Source of the DNA: a virus
Direction: 5' to 3' (one strand)
Length of the DNA stretch: 28,334 bases
Virus record (IMG/VR): IMGVR_UViG_3300035034_000221
Location: 1 to 28,334 of that record
In this document: positions 7,495-24,039 of the stretch, piece after piece
How positions within the stretch are numbered: the first letter of the stretch is position 1
Layout of the letters: each line of letters starts with the position of its first letter
Position numbers and translations under genes: made by a program
The notes under the pieces: model-generated
What the model was told of the DNA's origin: nothing
What the model saw: the letters and a program-made list of their open reading frames with translations, nothing else
Database searches by the model: none

Positions 7495-8091
7495 TTATTG
7501 TGGAAGACCGTAAGTAGCTAGATAGTAGGAATCAACTATATCCGATATTGGATTGCCGATTGTAGATTTAGTATAACCTATATTCTTCATGATGTCAATA
7601 GAGTTATTAAACTTTTTATTAAAAGATTCAAACATCATATCTTTGTTTGCATTACCATTGTCAGCCGCAAACTTCTTTATAGTCTTTGGCGAAGGTATAT
7701 CATATTCTATTTTTGCAAGTTTTAACTTATACTTTAATATTCCAGTGTTTTCTGCGATGTTGAAAATTAGGCCTCCACGAGAGCCCATTGAATATCCTTC
7801 AAGCTGAAGTCTTTGTAATTTCTTATATTTAGACAACACTTCTATAAAATAACTAGATATAAAATCATATCTGTCTATATCAGTTTTGAAATCATGTTTA
7901 CCACCAACTAAGGCACCATTTATGTTATCATCAAATGTACCAACATATCTTTTATCTTGTGTAAGATAATACCATGATATTGGGTTACCGTCTTTGTCTA
8001 TTATGGAGAGTGCTGGGCATGACATTGAATAATCAACACCAGCCCAGCATTCTTTATTGTAATTGTTATCTATCACTAACGTTTGCACCAT
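7495..8091 (-). CDS. RuvC-like Holliday-junction resolvase
   Basis: The 198-aa product has the RNase H-fold RuvC layout: WAGVDYSMSCPALSI with D20, LQLEGYSMGSRGG with E98, SPKTIKKFAADNGNANKD with the lysines typical of phage RuvC relatives, and PISDIVDSYYLATYG with D184 and D187. Together D20/E98/D184/D187 form the expected metal-binding tetrad. RuvC cleaves four-way junctions; in T4 the unrelated gp49 does this late in infection so branched DNA can be packaged. Its place under a late-type promoter (8442-8449) with the SleB-like hydrolase fits that timing. The start overlaps the acidic repeat gene by 26 bases. Confidence 0.83.
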   Translation of the reverse strand: MVQTLVIDNNYNKECWAGVDYSMSCPALSIIDKDGNPISWYYLTQDKRYVGTFDDNINGALVGGKHDFKTDIDRYDFISSYFIEVLSKYKKLQRLQLEGYSMGSRGGLIFNIAENTGILKYKLKLAKIEYDIPSPKTIKKFAADNGNANKDMMFESFNKKFNNSIDIMKNIGYTKSTIGNPISDIVDSYYLATYGLPQ

Positions 8092-8401
8092 TAGGATTTC
8101 TAACTGTTCTACCTTCGCGGCGTAGTTTAGAAATGCGTCTCATGTATGCTTGGTGATAGACCTCAGTTGAAGTATCAACAACATCTTCTTGTTTTTCGAT
8201 ATCATCAGTTGGCGTAACTACAGGTTCTGTTTCAACAACATCTGTTTCAACTGCAGGTTCATCGATATCAACTACATCTGTTTCAACTACAGGTTCATCG
8301 ATATCCACGGCAACAACTTCGGGTGTTTCTGTTTCAACTGTTTTAGCATCTTCCAAAAGTTTTTCGGCTTTTAGTTCTTTTTTGGTTTTTTTCTTAGCCA
8401 T
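8066..8401 (-). CDS. acidic Val/Asp/Glu repeat protein (111 aa)
   Basis: The N-terminus is a lysine-rich block (MAKKKTKKELKAEKLL), followed from about residue 20 to 72 by an acidic low-complexity stretch containing repeats of the form VDIDEPxVETDV. The C-terminal 30 residues are basic (YMRRISKLRREGRTVRNP). The repeats are visible in the DNA (8238-8309). No domain is recognised; the charge pattern suggests a disordered protein that binds nucleic acid or a partner at each end. It is the first gene after a TATAAATA late element and overlaps the RuvC-like gene, so the two are probably made together late. Confidence 0.75.
   Translation of the reverse strand: MAKKKTKKELKAEKLLEDAKTVETETPEVVAVDIDEPVVETDVVDIDEPAVETDVVETEPVVTPTDDIEKQEDVVDTSTEVYHQAYMRRISKLRREGRTVRNPNGANVSDR
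8238..8309 (-). repeat. 36-bp tandem repeat (2 copies) in the acidic protein gene
   Basis: Two 36-bp units starting at 8238 and 8274 (each beginning acatctgtttcaact) differ at only a few bases; a shorter partial copy precedes them at about 8218. Each unit encodes 12 residues (pattern VDIDEPxVETDV). Confidence 0.9.
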
Positions 8402-8441
8402 ATTATATAAAATTCCTATATTTTGGTTTTAATTTATATAA

Positions 8442-8449
8442 TATTTATA
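8442..8449 (-). promoter_or_regulatory. T4-type late promoter (TATAAATA)
   Basis: Exact TATAAATA on the minus strand between the dCMP deaminase stop and the acidic repeat gene. T4 geometry places the start near 8436, giving a 35-base leader. It would drive the acidic protein, RuvC-like nuclease, SleB-like hydrolase and tRNA. Confidence 0.65.
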
Positions 8450-8455
8450 CTAAGT

Positions 8456-8896
8456 TTATAACGCCCACAGTCTTTCTATTTTAATACCAGACGCTTGTAT
8501 ATGTAAAACACCATCAGAACATCTATATGCTTCTTTATAATACACAGCTTCTAAGTCCATCATAGACATTAATTTAGCACATTCAATACAGGGCGAATGA
8601 GTTAAATATACAACCGAACCAGCAACGCTTTCTGTAGACTTTGCTAATTTAATTATCATATTCTGTTCAGCATGAAGAACTTCTTTTTTTGTTGCATTTT
8701 GACTATTTTCGCAACAATTATCAAATCCAGGCGGCATATCATTCCAGCCTTTTGATATGATATTGCCATTCTTTACACAAATTGCGCCAACTTTCAATCT
8801 TTGTGAATGCGACATTTCTGCTACTCTATAAGCTATGTCCATATAAAGCTTATGATACTTTAGTTCTTTTTTTGTATAGTCATTCATATTGGCCAT
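8456..8896 (-). CDS. dCMP deaminase
   Basis: The 146-aa protein has the zinc-dependent cytidine/deoxycytidylate deaminase signature: HAE at residues 75-77 (H75 ligand, E77 proton shuttle) and SPCIECA at 102-107 (C103 and C106 ligands). KVGAICVKNGNIISKGWNDM and PPGFDNCCE before it fit the dCMP deaminase subgroup. It converts dCMP to dUMP, feeding thymidylate synthesis. The upstream Shine-Dalgarno site (GAAGG) overlaps the nrdA stop region, and nrdA ends only 5 bases before the ATG, so it is the last gene of the dNTP operon. T4 cd is the functional equivalent. Confidence 0.93.
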   Translation of the reverse strand: MANMNDYTKKELKYHKLYMDIAYRVAEMSHSQRLKVGAICVKNGNIISKGWNDMPPGFDNCCENSQNATKKEVLHAEQNMIIKLAKSTESVAGSVVYLTHSPCIECAKLMSMMDLEAVYYKEAYRCSDGVLHIQASGIKIERLWAL

Positions 8897-8901
8897 TATA
8901 A

Positions 8902-10584
8902 CTAACCTTCACAAGAAGAGCAACCGTCTTCCATATATTTCTTTCTAGCATATGACTGGGCAGCGTTTAAGGAATATTGGTAGTATAAAGTTTTAACACC
9001 TAAAGACCAGGCCAACATGTATAAAGTATTAATATCTTTGATTGGAGTCTCAGGGTCTATAAACAAATTTAACGACTGAGCCTGGTCAATAAATTCCTGT
9101 CTTGCTGCTGCTTGATATATTGTAGATTCTGGACTAATTTCATATAGAGTTTTAAATACAGCACGTTCATTATCTGTTAAGAATTTTAAATGCTGACAAG
9201 AACCATCAGAGTCTTTGATAGATTGCCACGTTGCTACGTCGTTTTTATTGTGTGATTTAAGAACGGATTCAAGATACGGGTTTTTAAATGTTGACTTCGC
9301 TTTTGACAAATCTTTAATATAGTAATTAGAAAATTCTGGCTCGATAGACATGGACACTTGCCCTAATATAAAAGAACTTGATTTTGTTGGTGCAATTGCC
9401 ATTAACGTTGAGTTACGTAAACCAGTACCATTCATTAGTTCAGGTTCGCCCCATTCTTTAGCCATCCATTTAGATGCTCTCGTTGATTCCTTTTGAATGT
9501 GCTTAAATATTCTAGTGTTTAAAGTAGTAGCAGACTTTGATTCAAACGCAATCATGTTTTTCATTAGATACGAATGCCAGCCTAGAACACCAAGACCCAA
9601 GGCACGTTGATTCTTTACAAAATTATAAACTCGTTGTAATAAGAATCGTGTTTTTTCTGGCTGTGCCTCAATTTTATTAATGAATTCTGTTACTACAGTA
9701 TCTAGAAATATTGTTAGTGTTTGAACAGCATCGGTGTCTTTCCAATCGTCGTAGTGTAGAATGTTCATAGAAGATAGGACACAAACAAAGGATTCGTCTT
9801 TGTTTGACGATAGGGCGATTTCTGCACACATGTTTGACGCATGAATCTTCATTCCATTATCTTTGTATACTTGAGGAGCTGCGTTGTTTACATTATCAGT
9901 AAAGAAAATGTATGGGTAACCAACCTCTGATCTATTCTTAAGAACTTTTGCCCAACGACGTCTAGCTTCTTTATCCCCAGCAATCATCTTGTTCATGAAT
10001 TCATCTGTTACAGTAACAGCAGCAGTTAAAGTTTGGATAGGATGTTCGTCTGCTCCAATTTCAACGAATTCATCAAAGTCGCCGTGATCAATTGGAAGAT
10101 ACGGTGTAAAGAACCCTCTACGTACCGAGCCTTGCGATACAACGTCTGTTAGTTTATCAAACAACTCCATAAAGTGTACAGAACCTGTAGATTTACCAAT
10201 GTCCTTAATTTCAGAACCTCTAGGTCTAATATTGCCAATATAACCAGATGTGCCGCCGCCGAATTTTGAAAGTAAACCAATCTCAGCATGTGTATACATA
10301 ATTGATTCCATAGAGTCTTCAAAATATGAACCGAAACATGAAACCGGGAAGCCGCGATCGGCGCCATAGTTAGACCATACTGGAGAGCTAAGCGAATAAT
10401 ATCCTTTTGACATATAGTCATAGAACTTATCTGCGAATCCTTCTATTCCAGATATTCTTTCTGCGTTATCAGCAATTACTCTAACGCGATCTTGCGTTGT
10501 TTGCCCTTCACGTAGATATCCACGTTGTAAGAATTCTTTAGTGTCGTCATTAACCCACGCAAATGGTTTGTTCGTGTTTGTCAT
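8902..10584 (-). CDS. nrdA: class I ribonucleotide reductase, large (alpha) subunit, without ATP-cone
   Basis: The 560-aa protein carries the class I alpha core: SPVWSNYG (67-74), PVSCFG with C83 as first redox cysteine, SNMCAEI (250-256) with the N251/C253/E255 catalytic set, C268 as second redox cysteine, APTKSSSFILG (398-408) for the phosphate loop, YYQYSLNAAQ with the radical-transfer tyrosine pair Y534/Y535, and a C-terminal CSSC (555-558) that is recharged by the redoxin. It reduces ribonucleoside diphosphates with the NrdB radical. It is about 200 residues shorter than E. coli or T4 NrdA because the N-terminal ATP-cone is absent; that domain is on NrdB instead. Shine-Dalgarno AAGGA precedes the ATG. 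Confidence 0.96.
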   Translation of the reverse strand: MTNTNKPFAWVNDDTKEFLQRGYLREGQTTQDRVRVIADNAERISGIEGFADKFYDYMSKGYYSLSSPVWSNYGADRGFPVSCFGSYFEDSMESIMYTHAEIGLLSKFGGGTSGYIGNIRPRGSEIKDIGKSTGSVHFMELFDKLTDVVSQGSVRRGFFTPYLPIDHGDFDEFVEIGADEHPIQTLTAAVTVTDEFMNKMIAGDKEARRRWAKVLKNRSEVGYPYIFFTDNVNNAAPQVYKDNGMKIHASNMCAEIALSSNKDESFVCVLSSMNILHYDDWKDTDAVQTLTIFLDTVVTEFINKIEAQPEKTRFLLQRVYNFVKNQRALGLGVLGWHSYLMKNMIAFESKSATTLNTRIFKHIQKESTRASKWMAKEWGEPELMNGTGLRNSTLMAIAPTKSSSFILGQVSMSIEPEFSNYYIKDLSKAKSTFKNPYLESVLKSHNKNDVATWQSIKDSDGSCQHLKFLTDNERAVFKTLYEISPESTIYQAAARQEFIDQAQSLNLFIDPETPIKDINTLYMLAWSLGVKTLYYQYSLNAAQSYARKKYMEDGCSSCEG

Positions 10585-10598
10585 TTTATGTTTTATCC

Positions 10599-11846
10599 TT
10601 AAAATAAGTTCTCAGCAGCGAATGCTTTAGATTTGTTGTAGTTTGTTGATTTTTTATGGAATTGATCGTTGATCTTCGTTACTGAGATTTCGTCGTCAAA
10701 CCATTCAATTTTTTGTAGAAGTTCCATGTCCAAGCCGAAGACGGGATCAACACCAATAGCAATAAGAGAGTCATTTAAGCGTTTCTTAATATACTCAATT
10801 GTTATTTTCTTTGGAGCAAACTCAAGATCGCCTAGTTCATAAATCCAATCTACAATTTCCTTTTCGGCTTCGAAAGCATCATATGTTAATTCTTTAATAT
10901 ATTCAATAAGTTCGTCATCAAACCATTCTGGGTTTTCTTCTTTAATAATATTAACAATATCAAAACCAAATTGCGCATGAAGCTTTTCTTCTTTTGATGT
11001 TGCCTCGATTGCGTTTGACATTCCAGCTAATTTGTTATCGTGTTTATTGAAAGACATGATAACCAAGAACTGCGAAAACAACGATACGTTTTCAACAAAG
11101 GTAGAGAATAGAATTATCGTTTCAAAGAAATCCCTATCATCTGTTGCCTTCATGTTTCTATGAGCTTTTTCTAGATATTGAATACGCTTATTAATAGCAG
11201 GAACCTTATCTAAGTCTAGAAAACGTCCCGACAAACCAAGTTTAGCAATCAATTCAGAATATGCGTCTTCATGGCGAACTTCAGATTCAGCAAATGTTGC
11301 TCCGACTTTCTTAATCTCTGGTTTTGGTAGTCTGTTACCAATTTTTCCCCAGAATTCTTTAACGGCTGATTCAATTTGAGAAATAGCAAGCATAGATCTA
11401 ATAACAGCTTCTGATTCTTTTTCAGACATTAGAACTTTAATATCTTGAACATCTGAAACATAACTAAAATGCTCGTGTGTCCAGTAAGCACCACGAATGG
11501 CTGAAATATAATCAACTAGGGCTGGATACTCATAAGGTCTGATTGCCGTTCTAGGTCTAAAGATATCTGGTTTGTTTGCATCACGATATGTAATATATGA
11601 TCTTGCTACGTTATATAGTTTAGCATCCATTAAAGAATGTTCAACCAACGTATGGATAGCGTCAACATGTGGCGTATCTGTGCCCCAAGTTTTTAGTTTG
11701 TTTAGAACTCTGTTTTTTATTTTGATAGCTGTTTTATTATCGTCTTCGTTTGTCTCAGACGAACCCATTGCGCGTAGGATAGCAATAACAATTTTACTGT
11801 CGTCGAAAGCTACTACCTGTTTATTTCTTTTAATTACTAAATTCAT
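10599..11846 (-). CDS. nrdB: ribonucleotide reductase, small (beta) subunit with N-terminal ATP-cone
   Basis: The 415-aa protein is a fusion. Residues 1-92 are an ATP-cone: MNLVIKRNKQVVAFDDSKI, then AIHTLVEHSL and VARSYITYRDANK. Residues about 100-390 are a diiron NrdB core with metal ligands in order E159 (SQIES), E189 and H192 (SEVRHEDAY), E252 (VENVSLFSQF), E287 and H290 (EEKLHAQFGF). Y196 lies where the E. coli radical tyrosine Y122 lies. The C-terminal tail (about 390-415, ending KAFAAENLF) should dock on NrdA. ATP-cones normally sit on NrdA; cones on beta subunits that control activity by tetramerising beta are known from Leeuwenhoekiella blandensis. The Shine-Dalgarno site GAGGA lies at the very end of the thyX-like gene, one base away. 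Confidence 0.95.
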   Translation of the reverse strand: MNLVIKRNKQVVAFDDSKIVIAILRAMGSSETNEDDNKTAIKIKNRVLNKLKTWGTDTPHVDAIHTLVEHSLMDAKLYNVARSYITYRDANKPDIFRPRTAIRPYEYPALVDYISAIRGAYWTHEHFSYVSDVQDIKVLMSEKESEAVIRSMLAISQIESAVKEFWGKIGNRLPKPEIKKVGATFAESEVRHEDAYSELIAKLGLSGRFLDLDKVPAINKRIQYLEKAHRNMKATDDRDFFETIILFSTFVENVSLFSQFLVIMSFNKHDNKLAGMSNAIEATSKEEKLHAQFGFDIVNIIKEENPEWFDDELIEYIKELTYDAFEAEKEIVDWIYELGDLEFAPKKITIEYIKKRLNDSLIAIGVDPVFGLDMELLQKIEWFDDEISVTKINDQFHKKSTNYNKSKAFAAENLF

Positions 11847-11847
11847 T

Positions 11848-12258
11848 TTAATCCTCTATAATATATTTCATTGCCTCTTCAATACCCGTTGCAATTTCAG
11901 CAATTTCTTCACAAGCATGATTGCGTTTTGCTTTGTAGAAGTTAATCAAATCACGAATGTTACCAGATAGTGCTATACGCTGTACGTCGTCGCCTTCGCA
12001 ATGACTATCGTTATTTAGTAGCAAAACAACAAGAGATCTGTGTTTCATGATAACCCACAGATTTTCTTTCTTAACTGTAAGCTCAAAAACAATGTTAGCG
12101 CACTCCAACGGCGACCAATGGTCTTTCTTAATAAGATATGAAACAGAATTTTTAATGCCGTTATAATCTTCGACTGGAGTTGAAAAACTCTCGTTTGCTA
12201 GATACGCTATTGTGTTTTTATTTGGCGCGGATATGACGTCAATTTTCTTAATGTTCAT
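11848..12258 (-). CDS. shortened ThyX-like protein lacking the catalytic signature
   Basis: The 136-aa frame aligns by pattern with both ends of flavin-dependent thymidylate synthase ThyX (usually about 210-250 aa). The N-terminal half has IAYLANESFSTP and HWSPLECANIVFEL (47-60; H47 and E52 match the FAD-contacting HxSxLEH motif region), then MKHRS (71-75), where the ThyX motif RHRxxSxNExSxRY should begin. Instead about 20 unrelated residues follow and the chain rejoins at LSGNIRDLINFYKAK (97-111) and the closing HACEEIAEIA. About 60-70 residues of the core, including the SxNExSxR segment, are missing. The frame is clean and the sequence shows no ThyX coding in other frames, so it is an in-frame deletion. 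Perfect early promoter upstream (12293-12321); nrdB follows by one base. Confidence 0.6.
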   Translation of the reverse strand: MNIKKIDVISAPNKNTIAYLANESFSTPVEDYNGIKNSVSYLIKKDHWSPLECANIVFELTVKKENLWVIMKHRSLVVLLLNNDSHCEGDDVQRIALSGNIRDLINFYKAKRNHACEEIAEIATGIEEAMKYIIED

Positions 12259-12292
12259 TTATATAATCGCTTTCAATTTGCTGGTATGGTGT

Positions 12293-12321
12293 ATTATATC
12301 ACAGACTTTTGATTTTGTCAA
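12293..12321 (-). promoter_or_regulatory. consensus early sigma70 promoter for thyX-like/nrdB/nrdA
   Basis: TTGACA (12321-12316), 17 bases, TATAAT (12298-12293), with a TGA before the -10 (extended -10). The start would be near 12286, 28 bases ahead of the thyX-like ATG. It overlaps the 3' end of the redoxin gene. Confidence 0.85.
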
Positions 12322-12553
12322 TATTAAAACCAGAGAAGTGAATATCACCTTTGACGATAACAGGCAGCTGTTTATAGCCAAGATCTTGTACAACCTTGCG
12401 GCCTTCTTCGTCTTTTGTAATATCTATTTTTTCGAATTTCTTACCAGTTGAAGTAAGTATTTTACACGCAGCGATACATTGCATACAGCTAGGAGACGAG
12501 TATATAATAATCGTGTCATCGTCGTGCGACTGGTTGGTTGTTTTGCTTGTCAT
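12299..12553 (-). CDS. nrdH: NrdH-type redoxin (glutaredoxin-like)
   Basis: The 84-aa thioredoxin-fold protein has the redox motif CMQC at residues 23-26 (NrdH proteins usually have CVQC/CMQC), KLPVI-like QLPVI with the cis-proline in the middle, and the NrdH-specific closing FSGFNIDKI. It should reduce the C-terminal cysteines of NrdA after each turnover. An extra N-terminal TSKTTNQSHDDD tail precedes the first strand. Shine-Dalgarno AAGGG lies about 10 bases before the ATG. It stands directly upstream of the thyX-like/nrdB/nrdA unit, and the promoter of that unit overlaps its last codons. Confidence 0.88.
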   Translation of the reverse strand: MTSKTTNQSHDDDTIIIYSSPSCMQCIAACKILTSTGKKFEKIDITKDEEGRKVVQDLGYKQLPVIVKGDIHFSGFNIDKIKSL

Positions 12554-12677
12554 TATTAAGTACCCTTGTTATAGTTTGTTGCGGTTGGTGTTCTTCTGCT
12601 GCTGCTACCTGCAACACTATATTATTAAAATATTCATATAGCGATTTACACAAATAATATCCAGCTAGGTATTTCAT
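12516..12677 (-). CDS. possible small protein (53 aa) ahead of nrdH
   Basis: An ATG at 12677 opens a 53-codon frame (MKYLAGYYLCKSLYEYFNNI at the start, Gln/Ala-rich middle) that overlaps nrdH by 38 bases. It lies 21 bases after the predicted start of a TATAAATA element (12704-12711). No strong Shine-Dalgarno site is visible and the frame contains many Gln/Ala codons from a gctgctgctg run, so it may be fortuitous. Confidence 0.3.
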   Translation of the reverse strand: MKYLAGYYLCKSLYEYFNNIVLQVAAAEEHQPQQTITRVLNNDKQNNQPVARR

Positions 12678-12703
12678 TTTATTGTCTTTGTTGGTAGGGA
12701 TTA

Positions 12704-12711
12704 TATTTATA
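12704..12711 (-). promoter_or_regulatory. T4-type late promoter (TATAAATA) upstream of nrdH
   Basis: Exact minus-strand TATAAATA in the gap between the 68-aa membrane protein and nrdH. The predicted start is near 12698. A late element ahead of a nucleotide-metabolism gene is less expected than the others; the same stretch also holds a TATAAT but no matching -35. Confidence 0.45.
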
Positions 12712-12716
12712 ATCTA

Positions 12717-12923
12717 TTAGATTTTAGGACTAACCATTATAGATAAAGTCATGACAATTGATGATAACACCATTATACGAAATGTTATTAAATTAAACAC
12801 AACGTTATAAGCTCCTATGTCCCAAACCACAAAGGAAATTCCCGTAACTACTAAAACAAAACCTGTAGATAATAATGCAGCAACAGTCATAAACGTTATT
12901 ATTAATCGTGATATAAATTTCAT
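12717..12923 (-). CDS. small inner-membrane protein (68 aa, two TM helices)
   Basis: Two hydrophobic segments fill most of the chain: about residues 5-31 (RLIITFMTVAALLSTGFVLV and on) and about 41-64. No family is recognised. The start overlaps the stop of the 13189 gene in an ATGA arrangement, which implies translational coupling. Small membrane proteins of phages may act as holins, antiholins or superinfection factors; the two-helix shape would permit a holin role, but it lies in an early-looking replication cluster far from the SleB-like gene. Confidence 0.6.
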   Translation of the reverse strand: MKFISRLIITFMTVAALLSTGFVLVVTGISFVVWDIGAYNVVFNLITFRIMVLSSIVMTLSIMVSPKI

Positions 12924-13189
12924 GACTTTAACAGTTCCTTTAGTGCTTCGTTAGCGATATCTTCTTCATCACCATCGGCCAACTCAACAGGACAATAGTA
13001 CTTGTCAATTTCTTTAAATGTTTCAATAACTTTTACTACCGAATGAAAGAATTCTGTTCTACATGACCCACTTAGAACGTGTTTTTCCAGTTGTCTGTGT
13101 TTATCAACCATGTCACGTAAGTGTGGCTTTAACTCGGAATATTCAACATATGCCTTTTCTAGTTTATTATGTTGATGATCATTGTTCAT
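12920..13189 (-). CDS. hypothetical helical protein (89 aa)
   Basis: Not recognised. It is charged and mostly helical (HNKLEKAYVEYSELKPHLRD, then DMVDKHRQLEKHV), with a closing acidic DGDEEDIANEALKELLKS. I prefer the ATG at 13189, which directly follows the ligase stop (TAA-C-ATG) and has GAG about 9 bases upstream; an in-frame ATG at 13207 inside the ligase gene would add six residues. It is coupled to the membrane protein downstream through a 4-base overlap. Confidence 0.6.
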   Translation of the reverse strand: MNNDHQHNKLEKAYVEYSELKPHLRDMVDKHRQLEKHVLSGSCRTEFFHSVVKVIETFKEIDKYYCPVELADGDEEDIANEALKELLKS

Positions 13190-13190
13190 G

Positions 13191-14975
13191 TTACAATACT
13201 CTATCATAAAATTGTTTTTCTGTCAATATAATCATGTCTCTTTTTCTAGCATTCTTTACCTTAGACGATTGACTAGTAATATTATCAATAACAAGGAAGT
13301 CAGCATCCGATAAGTTGTTAACCATTGTGGCTTTGCCGCGAACTTTTTGTTCAACTTGTTTCTTTGTCATTCCAGACGGCATCTTACCTGTAATAATAAA
13401 CTTTGGCAGATCCTCTCCAGAATCTTCATCGAACTCTTCTGTAATAATAACATCCCAGTTTTCGTTAACAAACAACAAGATGTCTTGATACTCTTTATCC
13501 TGAAGAACCTTTTCAACTGTAATATTAACACCCGAGCTACTAACGATTTCATCAACGTCTAGATCGGTGCCTAGCGTAATGGCTTTAATATAATCATGAT
13601 AAAAATGTTTAAGAGAAGCTGTTGCGGTTCTACCAACACCATGAAAACCAAGGCTTGAGAATATAATAGACCCAGATATCGTTTTATTCTTTAAAACAGA
13701 TAACAACGTGTTTGCGCTTGAAATTAAACTGTTTGCTTTCAGCTTGTCTAATATTTCCTGATCATCAAGTTCTCTAACTTTAACCAAGTCTTCGTACGTG
13801 TAAATATTAAAGATCTCTTGGAGTTTATCAAAGCTCTTAAACCCGTCATACGTATAATACGTTTTCATAAAGTATCTAAGTGATTCGGCTTCTGTGTTGT
13901 GGTTGTTTGAATATGCATGTACGCCGTCTACTTTAAAGTTCTGCCATGGCCAAGGCGTACAATTTTCTTCTATTCCTGATATAACTTCAACAATATAAGG
14001 AATAATTTCGTTGCCCTTAGTTAATAATATCTTAGAACCAACACCAATTTTATTATCTGAAATAAACTTATAATTAAAACCAGAACACTTAGAACAATTC
14101 GTCCCATATAGTTCAACAGTTTCATAATGAATAATTGGGATTAGTTTACCGCCCTTATGAGAATTCCATTCAACTTGTGTTACAGTTGTTTCCGTTGTTT
14201 CGGTCTCAAACTTAAACGCATATGCTTGGTCTTTGTTGTTTGCATTAACATATACCACGCCGTCTACTGGAATATCAGAGTCAGATTTCCAAACCGTTCT
14301 GAGCTTTTCTTCAAGGTTTTCAACACGAACGGTCCATGGAGTTAAGCTCTTCATACCAAATTTATCTGTAATAGGAGTTTTTTCGTGAGCCACGAACGTA
14401 ACATATTCCAGCTTGTCTAATGACTTTGCATTTATAATACCAGAAACAGCATGTCTTGGAGTTGCATATTCGTCAGACAGATCTTTAGTAAATACAGAGT
14501 TAAGAATAATCAATTCGCCTCTAATTTCATATTTGCCTTTATCATCAACAGTCTTAGGAATACCAGGGATTAGTTTAACCTTTTCCATGATGTTAACGCC
14601 ATATTCACCATCGCCGCGTGTAGCAGCTAAAATCAACGACCCATTTTCATATTCTAAGATACACGACATACCATCAGCCTTCTGTGATAGAATATATAAA
14701 TCCCAGTCTTTATGAACGTCTTTAAAATCTTTAACTTTTGGGAGAGATTCGCGAATTGTGCAAGGAAGTTTAATCTTCTCACCATACACAGATATACCGA
14801 ACCCAACACCTTTAAGGACTTCACTCTTGGCGTTAATTGATTCTAGTTTATCTAAACAGTAATCAAATAAGATATCGTCCATTGATACCATGCCAAGATA
14901 ATAATCTTGAGATGCTTTAATAATTAGTGTTTCTAATTCAACAGACGATAGTTTATCAATATCAGAGCGTTTCAT
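13191..14975 (-). CDS. ligA: NAD+-dependent DNA ligase (LigA type) without zinc finger
   Basis: The 594-aa protein has a degenerate Ia-like N-terminus, then the nucleotidyltransferase motif KADG (K99 is adenylated; LSQKADGMSCILEY), TRGDG (119-123), EIRGELII, and an OB-fold segment ending IGVGSKILLTKGNEIIPYI. A helix-hairpin-helix region follows (SSLGFHGVGRTA) and the C-terminal 70 residues form a BRCT domain (FIITGKMPSGMTKKQ to EKQFYDRVL). The four-Cys zinc finger that normally follows the OB fold in LigA (about 670 aa) is not visible: only one Cys remains there. A CSKC pair lies earlier, inside the OB fold. It seals nicks at Okazaki fragments. T4 uses an unrelated ATP-dependent ligase. Shine-Dalgarno is weak (GAAAG). 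Confidence 0.92.
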   Translation of the reverse strand: MKRSDIDKLSSVELETLIIKASQDYYLGMVSMDDILFDYCLDKLESINAKSEVLKGVGFGISVYGEKIKLPCTIRESLPKVKDFKDVHKDWDLYILSQKADGMSCILEYENGSLILAATRGDGEYGVNIMEKVKLIPGIPKTVDDKGKYEIRGELIILNSVFTKDLSDEYATPRHAVSGIINAKSLDKLEYVTFVAHEKTPITDKFGMKSLTPWTVRVENLEEKLRTVWKSDSDIPVDGVVYVNANNKDQAYAFKFETETTETTVTQVEWNSHKGGKLIPIIHYETVELYGTNCSKCSGFNYKFISDNKIGVGSKILLTKGNEIIPYIVEVISGIEENCTPWPWQNFKVDGVHAYSNNHNTEAESLRYFMKTYYTYDGFKSFDKLQEIFNIYTYEDLVKVRELDDQEILDKLKANSLISSANTLLSVLKNKTISGSIIFSSLGFHGVGRTATASLKHFYHDYIKAITLGTDLDVDEIVSSSGVNITVEKVLQDKEYQDILLFVNENWDVIITEEFDEDSGEDLPKFIITGKMPSGMTKKQVEQKVRGKATMVNNLSDADFLVIDNITSQSSKVKNARKRDMIILTEKQFYDRVL

Positions 14976-15635: not shown

Positions 15636-16094
15636 TTAGACATATTCGTAGTGTGTATATTTAAAAGTAACAGATCCCATTGGCTGGTTTTGAAATTCTG
15701 ATTCGGCCGCTGAAAATTTAATGCCAGATATAAATGTAGGCGAGCACGAATAAAATTTAACCATTTTATTTTCGTTCATATTATTATCTAGAACAGATAT
15801 TGTTATGTCTGTTAAATATTCACCAGTTTGCGTAGAAGCTTGAACCATCCATGAAACTATATCTCTCCAGCCAGCTAAGTCTTTATTAATAAGAAATGAT
15901 ATCTGTAGATCGTCAAACCTCATTTTATCACCAGTTGCATACGCATCAATATAAGTATTTGTTGGTACGTTAACACTTTGTAGTGACACTGATGGAATAG
16001 TTACATCTTGTGCAAAGTATTGAATGTCTTGAAACTTGTCAATACTAATAACAAATTTATTTGGGGATAGTAAATCTAACGTTCTCGTGGCCAT
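15636..16094 (-). CDS. T4-like tail tube / baseplate-fold protein (152 aa)
   Basis: The sequence (SPNKFVISIDKFQDIQYFAQ, then TIPSVSLQSVNVPTN, TGDKMRFDDLQISFLINKDL, WRDIVSWMVQ) follows the pattern of the short tube-fold proteins of T4-like phages of aquatic bacteria: F-x-F/I near the start, IPS-x-S-L, a GD-x-x-x-F-x-x-L-x-I-x-F core strand and a W-x-x-I-x-x-W-M helix. The strand-helix layout is that of gp19-type tube or tube-initiator subunits, which stack as hexameric rings. Which ring it forms cannot be told from sequence alone. It follows the ParB-like gene by 7 bases, under the late element at 16530. Confidence 0.65.
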   Translation of the reverse strand: MATRTLDLLSPNKFVISIDKFQDIQYFAQDVTIPSVSLQSVNVPTNTYIDAYATGDKMRFDDLQISFLINKDLAGWRDIVSWMVQASTQTGEYLTDITISVLDNNMNENKMVKFYSCSPTFISGIKFSAAESEFQNQPMGSVTFKYTHYEYV

Positions 16095-18500: not shown

Positions 18501-18755
18501 TTAATTGATTTTTGATTCTACTAGTTTGATAATGTCGCCGACGGTTTCTTTGCCTGAAATTTCAGAATCAGGTATTTCAATATTGAACACTTCTTCTAAG
18601 TGCATAACAACCTCAATACTGTCTAAGCTGTCTGCACCAAGATCTTGTTCCAAATTTTGATTTTCTTCGGTTAAGTGATCTCGACCAAGCGATAATACAT
18701 CTTGAATTGCTTTAATAACTTCGTCTTTGATATTCGATTGCGTAATAGTAACCAT
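18501..18755 (-). CDS. acpP: acyl carrier protein
   Basis: The 84-aa protein is a full-length ACP: DLGADSLDSIEVVMHLEEVF places the phosphopantetheine serine at S43 (D42-S43-L44), followed by the typical helix II and EIPDSE. A five-residue extension precedes the usual start. After modification by host holo-ACP synthase it could carry acyl chains to host or phage enzymes. Phage-borne ACPs are known from several large and marine phages but their role is unclear. Its partner here may be the membrane protein gene just upstream (3 bases away). Shine-Dalgarno GGAAAG lies before the ATG. Confidence 0.93.
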   Translation of the reverse strand: MVTITQSNIKDEVIKAIQDVLSLGRDHLTEENQNLEQDLGADSLDSIEVVMHLEEVFNIEIPDSEISGKETVGDIIKLVESKIN

Positions 18756-23418: not shown

Positions 23419-23446
23419 ATTATATTTTATTGTTTAAAGATGTCAA
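23419..23446 (-). promoter_or_regulatory. consensus early sigma70 promoter (leftward)
   Basis: TTGACA (23446-23441), 16 bases, TATAAT (23424-23419). It drives the 116-aa gene. The rightward late element at 23463 lies only 16 bases away. Confidence 0.8.
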
Positions 23447-23462
23447 TAGTATATTTTCATAG

Positions 23463-23470
23463 TATAAATA
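23463..23470 (+). promoter_or_regulatory. T4-type late promoter, leaderless geometry (rightward)
   Basis: Exact TATAAATA, then ATAAT, then the ATG of the tube-family gene at 23476. No Shine-Dalgarno site precedes this ATG. T4 geometry puts +1 on the A of the ATG. It leads the rightward virion block. Confidence 0.72.
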
Positions 23471-23475
23471 ATAAT

Positions 23476-24039
23476 ATGACTGTACTTAAAACAAATGATA
23501 TTCTAACTCACGTGTTTAGAAATTATCCTCTTCAACCATTTTTATATAGAGTATATATCAATGGAGGAGGACCAGTACCAGACGCAAACTCAGATATAAT
23601 GCTTAATTGCACGAGTATTATGGTTCCAGGCGAAAACATGGGCGTTAACTTTGTAAAACGCCACGGGATTGGAAGACCAACTAATATTGCAACTGGAAAA
23701 TCGTTTACGGAGGTCACGTTAGATTTTATGGAAGCTGATGGTTCCCCAGAGAAAAAATACTTTTCAGACTGGCAAAAGCAAATGTTTAATCCTGTTACAC
23801 AAAGAATTGGTTTCTATAAAGATTATACAAAGACAATATTAATAGATCAATACGATCGCTCTGGTAATATAACGTTTCAAGGCAAGCTCATAGAGTGTTT
23901 TCCATCTAACATTACTCCAGTTTCTCGTGGTTATGATATGACAAACCCGTCTACTGTGACCGTATCGTTCCAGATATATAACGTTGAAGAAATGTACTTT
24001 AATAAAGAACGCGGAGTAAACCCGTTTGGATTTATCTAA
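23476..24039 (+). CDS. gp19-family tail tube protein
   Basis: The 187-aa product follows the T4 gp19/gp54 tube fold: an N-terminal FLYRVYINGG strand, SIMVPGENMGVNFVKRHGIG (P-x-x-x-x-x-x loop and basic turn), TGKSFTEVTLDFMEADGSPE (T4 gp19 has GDRTFDDWTVTVMNDEA here), KKYFSDWQKQM (gp19 RQKFVDWQ), and a closing strand VTVSFQIYNVEEMYF. Tube proteins stack as hexamers inside the contractile sheath. Together with the hub gene downstream it may be the main tube or a tube-initiator ring near the baseplate. I chose the ATG at 23476 over an upstream frame start at 23440, because the latter would precede the late promoter. Confidence 0.75.
   Translation: MTVLKTNDILTHVFRNYPLQPFLYRVYINGGGPVPDANSDIMLNCTSIMVPGENMGVNFVKRHGIGRPTNIATGKSFTEVTLDFMEADGSPEKKYFSDWQKQMFNPVTQRIGFYKDYTKTILIDQYDRSGNITFQGKLIECFPSNITPVSRGYDMTNPSTVTVSFQIYNVEEMYFNKERGVNPFGFI

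Follow-up and report, generated by a model that had tools for sequence, protein, structure and literature searches.

A viral gene lying directly ahead of the ribonucleotide reductase (RNR) genes encodes a ThyX-family protein from which the catalytic core has been lost in frame. The gene was found in IMGVR_UViG_3300035034_000221, and the whole stretch analyzed, 28,334 nucleotides in length (hereafter, the window), is a fragment of a phage genome. The ORF begins with ATG, ends with TAA and specifies 136 residues, both ends of which resemble ThyX. As judged from its residues, the protein is almost certainly catalytically dead. The reading that we favor, and to which we would give an even chance, is that this dead ThyX derivative has been kept on in an RNR operon as a pseudoenzyme that is still translated.

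Family membership and operon setting

The preliminary description of this DNA had proposed a ThyX-like gene with an in-frame loss of its core, and both a family search and a dedicated profile bear this out. The protein matches Pfam Thy1 (PF02511) with 34.7 bits against a cut-off of 24.8, the match being split into two stretches; this places the ORF in the ThyX family. The equivalog cut-off of NCBIfam thyX (TIGR02170), 87.9 bits, is not reached (38.1 bits). A custom profile of 219 positions, constructed from ~80 viral ThyX sequences, also matches both ends, and the two matches are collinear, with 12 residues of the ORF spanning 80 of the 219 profile positions. The C-terminal segment scored alone gives 9.2 bits, a value reached by none of 5,000 shuffles, the best of which gave 7.5. 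In a MAFFT alignment homology can be traced through residue 83, along the strand that follows KHRS and in which the catalytic letters are replaced (SFSFQEFSQ after KHR in ThyX, SLVVLLLNN here), and a gap then extends up to the segment before SGNIRD. Judged by the profile and the MAFFT gap, the first estimate, that 60-70 core residues were lost with about 20 unrelated residues in their place, was about right.

The closest known system is the viral clade of the ThyX/Thy1 family (PF02511, TIGR02170), of which PBCV-1 ThyX (2cfa, 4fzb) is a solved example. The ThyX-like protein shares with this clade the N-terminal third containing HWSPLE and KHRS, the C-terminal SGNIRD segment and a predicted alpha/beta core. 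In contrast to these enzymes, which are ~210-230 residues long, it has 136 residues and is without the RHRxxSxxExSxRY signature, the R147 region and the dUMP residues.

Table 1. The ThyX-like gene, its segments and its operon neighbors, in window coordinates
Feature	Coordinates	Strand	Basis or remarks
ThyX-derived ORF, core-deleted	11848..12258	-	136 aa; ORF list, Pfam Thy1, frame-specific coding signal
N-terminal ThyX-homologous segment, residues 13-76 (IAYLAN..HWSPLE..MKHRSL)	12031..12222	-	Profile positions 19-82, 43 bits
Deletion junction, residues 77-88 (VVLLLNNDSHCE)	11995..12030	-	Replaces ~70-80 core positions; gap between profile stretches, and alignment
C-terminal ThyX-homologous segment, residues 89-133 (GDDVQRIALSGNIRDLINF...)	11860..11994	-	Profile positions 163-208
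Sigma-70-type promoter, TTGACA-17-TATAAT, TG before -10	12293..12321	-	12/12 match; unique within 8000-13500
Glutaredoxin, upstream of the ThyX-like gene, 3' end overlapping the promoter	12299..12553	-	Pfam Glutaredoxin
nrdB with N-terminal ATP cone	10599..11846	-	Pfam Ribonuc_red_sm and ATP-cone
nrdA, RNR large subunit	8902..10584	-	Pfam
dCMP deaminase (makes dUMP)	8456..8896	-	Pfam dCMP_cyt_deam_1

The gene order is glutaredoxin, ThyX-like, nrdB, nrdA and dCMP deaminase (Table 1). The promoter match ends ~35 bases upstream of the ThyX-like start codon. This site, a putative early promoter in the preliminary description, is indeed perfect, with a match of 12 of 12 positions and a 17-base spacer. 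Taken with the gene order, the match does support the placement of the ThyX-like gene between a strong promoter and nrdB, and the dCMP deaminase reported earlier was likewise recovered. At the other end, a single base separates the ThyX-like stop from the nrdB ATG, and the ribosome site of nrdB, GAGG, falls within the ThyX-like gene. This site is predicted to be mostly unpaired (0.75 unpaired) and looks strong, and nrdB is therefore probably not strictly dependent on translation from upstream. No introns or other RNA families were found beside the ThyX-like gene; one tRNA lies elsewhere.

The ATP cone (PF03477) of this operon is N-terminal on NrdB, where it is less usual than on NrdA, and the glutaredoxin is a separate upstream gene. 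Facklamia ignava contains a Grx-ATP cone-NrdB fusion (PMC6187632), in which a glutaredoxin likewise precedes an ATP-cone NrdB; in contrast to that fusion, the genes here are separate and the ThyX derivative lies between them.

Residue losses and predicted structure

The changes in the protein are not confined to the deletion. We scored as near-invariant the 68 residues shared by 90% or more of 51 full-length ThyX proteins of phages and viruses; the ORF keeps 17 of these and has replacements at 32, and the other 19 lie within the gap. The ThyX-like protein thus keeps 17 of the 49 near-invariant positions outside the gap, compared with 22-24 in Thermotoga maritima ThyX and two distant phage ThyX proteins, and with 38 in the most divergent ThyX of the viral set. 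A stricter set consists of 26 residues common to the viral set, T. maritima ThyX and the two distant phage ThyX proteins; here 8 are deleted, 8 are replaced and 10 are kept, so that 8 of the 18 universal residues outside the deletion have changed.

In T. maritima numbering, the replacements include R28N, Q75V, R78K, E86L, S88N, R174K and Q180E, and R90, Y91 and R147 are deleted; L173 and H178 are also changed. The RHRxxSxxExSxRY signature is absent: KHRS is followed by LVVLLLNN, R90 and Y91 are missing and S88 aligns to an asparagine. At the dUMP site, to which Q75, R147 and R174 of the T. maritima enzyme belong, the residues Q75, R78, E86, R147 and R174 correspond to V69, K72, L80, a deleted position and K111, respectively. 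Identical counterparts are aligned for S30, H53, E58, H79, R80, N163, R165 and N169, of which the last three, among others, belong to the flavin site of T. maritima ThyX. The FAD site of ThyX is formed at subunit interfaces, and it needs the tetramer and the lost loop. Both S88 and Y91 are critical for the activity of T. maritima ThyX, and R78, E86 and S88 contact the flavin (PMC11940539). The T. maritima reference sequence that we used is numbered consistently with the residues that this paper names.

The preliminary description had suggested comparing a predicted structure with ThyX, and the outcome was divided. AlphaFold2 supplied with a ThyX alignment, which left out the rows of the phages collection, produced a compact ThyX-like core (pLDDT 81.7, pTM 0.76), and the best matches of this model among solved structures are all ThyX, with TM scores of ~0.7-0.8 on the query. 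The single-sequence AlphaFold2 model, by contrast, is all helical, with a pLDDT of 50 and no confident fold. Given this poor model, the good one may owe its fold to the alignment; on modeling grounds, it is plausible that the protein can fold.

Relatives of the short form and a candidate origin of the deletion

A copy of the gene with 100% identity is present in a second contig, IMGVR_UViG_3300023049_000071, within a 20.4-kb overlap that differs from the window at 18 positions. Same-length homologues in related phages, a check proposed at the outset, were sought among viral contigs, species genomes and phages, and this sister contig was the only one found. In the viral contigs, a protein search gave one true match (L002) and a chance match to an unrelated protein (L003), and degenerate DNA searches for HWSPLECA and GNIRDLINF recovered the sister contig only. 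The species genomes contained no relatives of the short form. In the phages, tblastn gave only partial matches to annotated thymidylate synthases, and the four inspected are full length. In the 77 complete viral ThyX ORFs whose N-terminal ends are most similar, the core is present in full. The short ThyX form is known from one phage lineage, its relatives amounting to one near-identical contig.

Among 50 contigs with a related nrdB, ThyX is present in only three: the sister contig, a contig with a full 222-aa ThyX ~3.5 kb beyond nrdB (L005) and one with an N4-type ThyX. Thus, thyX does not generally lie ahead of nrdB. An N4-type ThyX of 319 aa is encoded at L086:1429-2388; this type occurs widely in phages, in 1022 records, some of which have two annotated genes over it.

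ThyA (Pfam PF00303) has no match in the window or the sister contig, and neither a second ThyX piece nor the missing core as a separate ORF was found within the 28-kb fragment, in agreement with the earlier statement that the window holds no complete thymidylate synthase. A search for sequence extending the phage past the window returned none at the right end and the sister contig only at the left end.

The thyX gene of Vibrio phage vB_VspP_pVa5 (KX889068; L177:1879-3288) is interrupted at the RHR signature by an insertion encoding an HNH endonuclease and annotated as a joined CDS. It is therefore disturbed at nearly the same spot as the gene described here, a few codons from our junction. The two cases differ in that the missing part of the pVa5 gene lies downstream and is annotated as joined, whereas in our case the window does not encode the core and there is no adjacent HNH gene. 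By analogy, damage linked to a homing element may have caused the core loss, and we offer this origin as a lead.

Pseudoenzyme, relic and other explanations

In the reading that we favor, a former flavin-dependent thymidylate synthase would have lost catalysis and would still be translated, as a pseudoenzyme in which the alpha/beta core of ThyX is shortened. Its gene would head an RNR module (thyX-like, nrdB, nrdA and dCMP deaminase) that is transcribed from the strong promoter. We infer that the protein can fold and that it owes its retention to a role in binding or as a partner, with a flavin, a nucleotide or a protein of the RNR pathway, and not to dTMP synthesis; the dTMP of the phage would be supplied by the host or by a gene outside the 28-kb fragment. 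A regulator or partner role in RNR itself may also be considered, for which gene order is the basis.

Two lines of evidence bear on whether the frame is being kept. The coding signal of the ThyX-like frame is +37 bits, with the remaining frames at -29 to -170, and the signal per codon, 0.275 bits, is ordinary when compared with the 0.22-0.55 bits of other genes of the phage. In addition, when neutral decay was simulated to the point at which 8 of the 18 universal residues had changed, the frame was stop-free in ~3-8% of runs at the most compatible distances; the simulation is rough, as its starting point is the gene in its present form and the 18 positions are free to vary once the loss has occurred, and this range reflects stops alone. 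When indels were added, at an assumed one per ten substitutions, an open frame was far rarer. The simulation favors retention of the translated product, be it for the protein or for translation itself, and what is retained may be a former enzyme that now serves a different purpose, its frame open for longer than simple decay predicts. A fresh pseudogene, considered as the leading reading, is weakened by the simulation and by the residue losses outside the deletion.

The most serious alternative, which we regard as a real but clearly lesser possibility, is that the gene is no more than a relic, a remnant of thyX drifting since an in-frame deletion. The protein would then be inert, and the frame would be open through a short time since the loss or because translating ribosomes shield the operon mRNA from polar effects on nrdB. 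The loss of the catalytic core, the finding of the short form in only one lineage and the poor single-sequence model are all in keeping with a relic, as is the junction with nrdB, where the position of the stop and of the ribosome site means that a frame-breaking change could be polar. A premature stop in the ThyX-like gene could still be polar on nrdB, and the open frame could be held by such polarity instead of by protein function. However, neutral drift this far rarely leaves an open frame, the coding signal is normal, and the nrdB ribosome site is strong and largely unpaired, so that strict coupling is unneeded. Strict translational coupling as the cause of the clean frame is weakened by this same open site.

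A specific form of the pseudoenzyme reading, which we hold to be improbable, is that of a mini-ThyX that still binds flavin and either regulates the adjacent RNR/glutaredoxin module or exchanges electrons with it as a partner. The counterparts of S30, H53, E58, H79, R80, N163, R165 and N169 remain while dUMP-side residues are lost, and the gene sits between the glutaredoxin and the ATP-cone NrdB. An FAD-binding remnant, as suggested in the preliminary description, would be compatible with these counterparts. Against the partner role, R78, L173 and H178 are changed, the ThyX FAD site, which is built at subunit interfaces, includes parts of the lost loop, and such a neighborhood is no evidence of interaction with RNR. 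The loop parts concerned are E86 and S88 (PMC11940539).

That the true phage has a full-length thyX of which the assembly skipped a segment, a possibility named in the preliminary description, is very unlikely, because the identical short gene is present in the second contig, which differs at 18 sites over 20.4 kb. Both sequences are metagenome contigs and possibly do not come from independent samples, but the retained parts are themselves degraded at catalytic sites, which a skipped segment would not bring about. Least probable of all, and hardly credible, is a still active minimal thymidylate synthase: the counterparts of S30, H53, E58, H79 and R80 are present, but S88, R90, Y91, E86, R78, R147 and R174 are all lost or changed, S88 and Y91 being critical in the T. 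maritima enzyme (PMC11940539), and the earlier suggestion of a new minimal enzyme is contradicted because dUMP-site and catalytic residues beyond the deletion are altered too.

Should the pseudoenzyme reading hold, with the protein folded and kept, an unusual ThyX would have persisted in a nucleotide operon of a phage despite the loss of its whole active-site core, and it would serve as a natural experiment on how minimal a ThyX fold can be for a stable core or flavin binding. If the gene is instead a relic, it would record a phage that sheds its thymidylate synthase but retains RNR and dCMP deaminase. In either case, a Pfam Thy1 match above threshold is no proof of a thymidylate synthase in lists of viral metabolic genes.

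Several other genes of the window were noted. An Nmad5 domain (nucleotide modification associated domain 5), at 2185-2790 on the minus strand, may hint at modified bases in this phage, and a Lar-like restriction alleviation protein (PF14354) is encoded at 1109-1456, also on the minus strand. An acyl carrier protein gene (18501-18755, minus strand) adjoins an RNA ligase gene. The tail-tube family phrog_45 is represented by two proteins within the 28-kb fragment, one encoded at 15636-16094 on the minus strand and the other at 23440-24039 on the plus strand.
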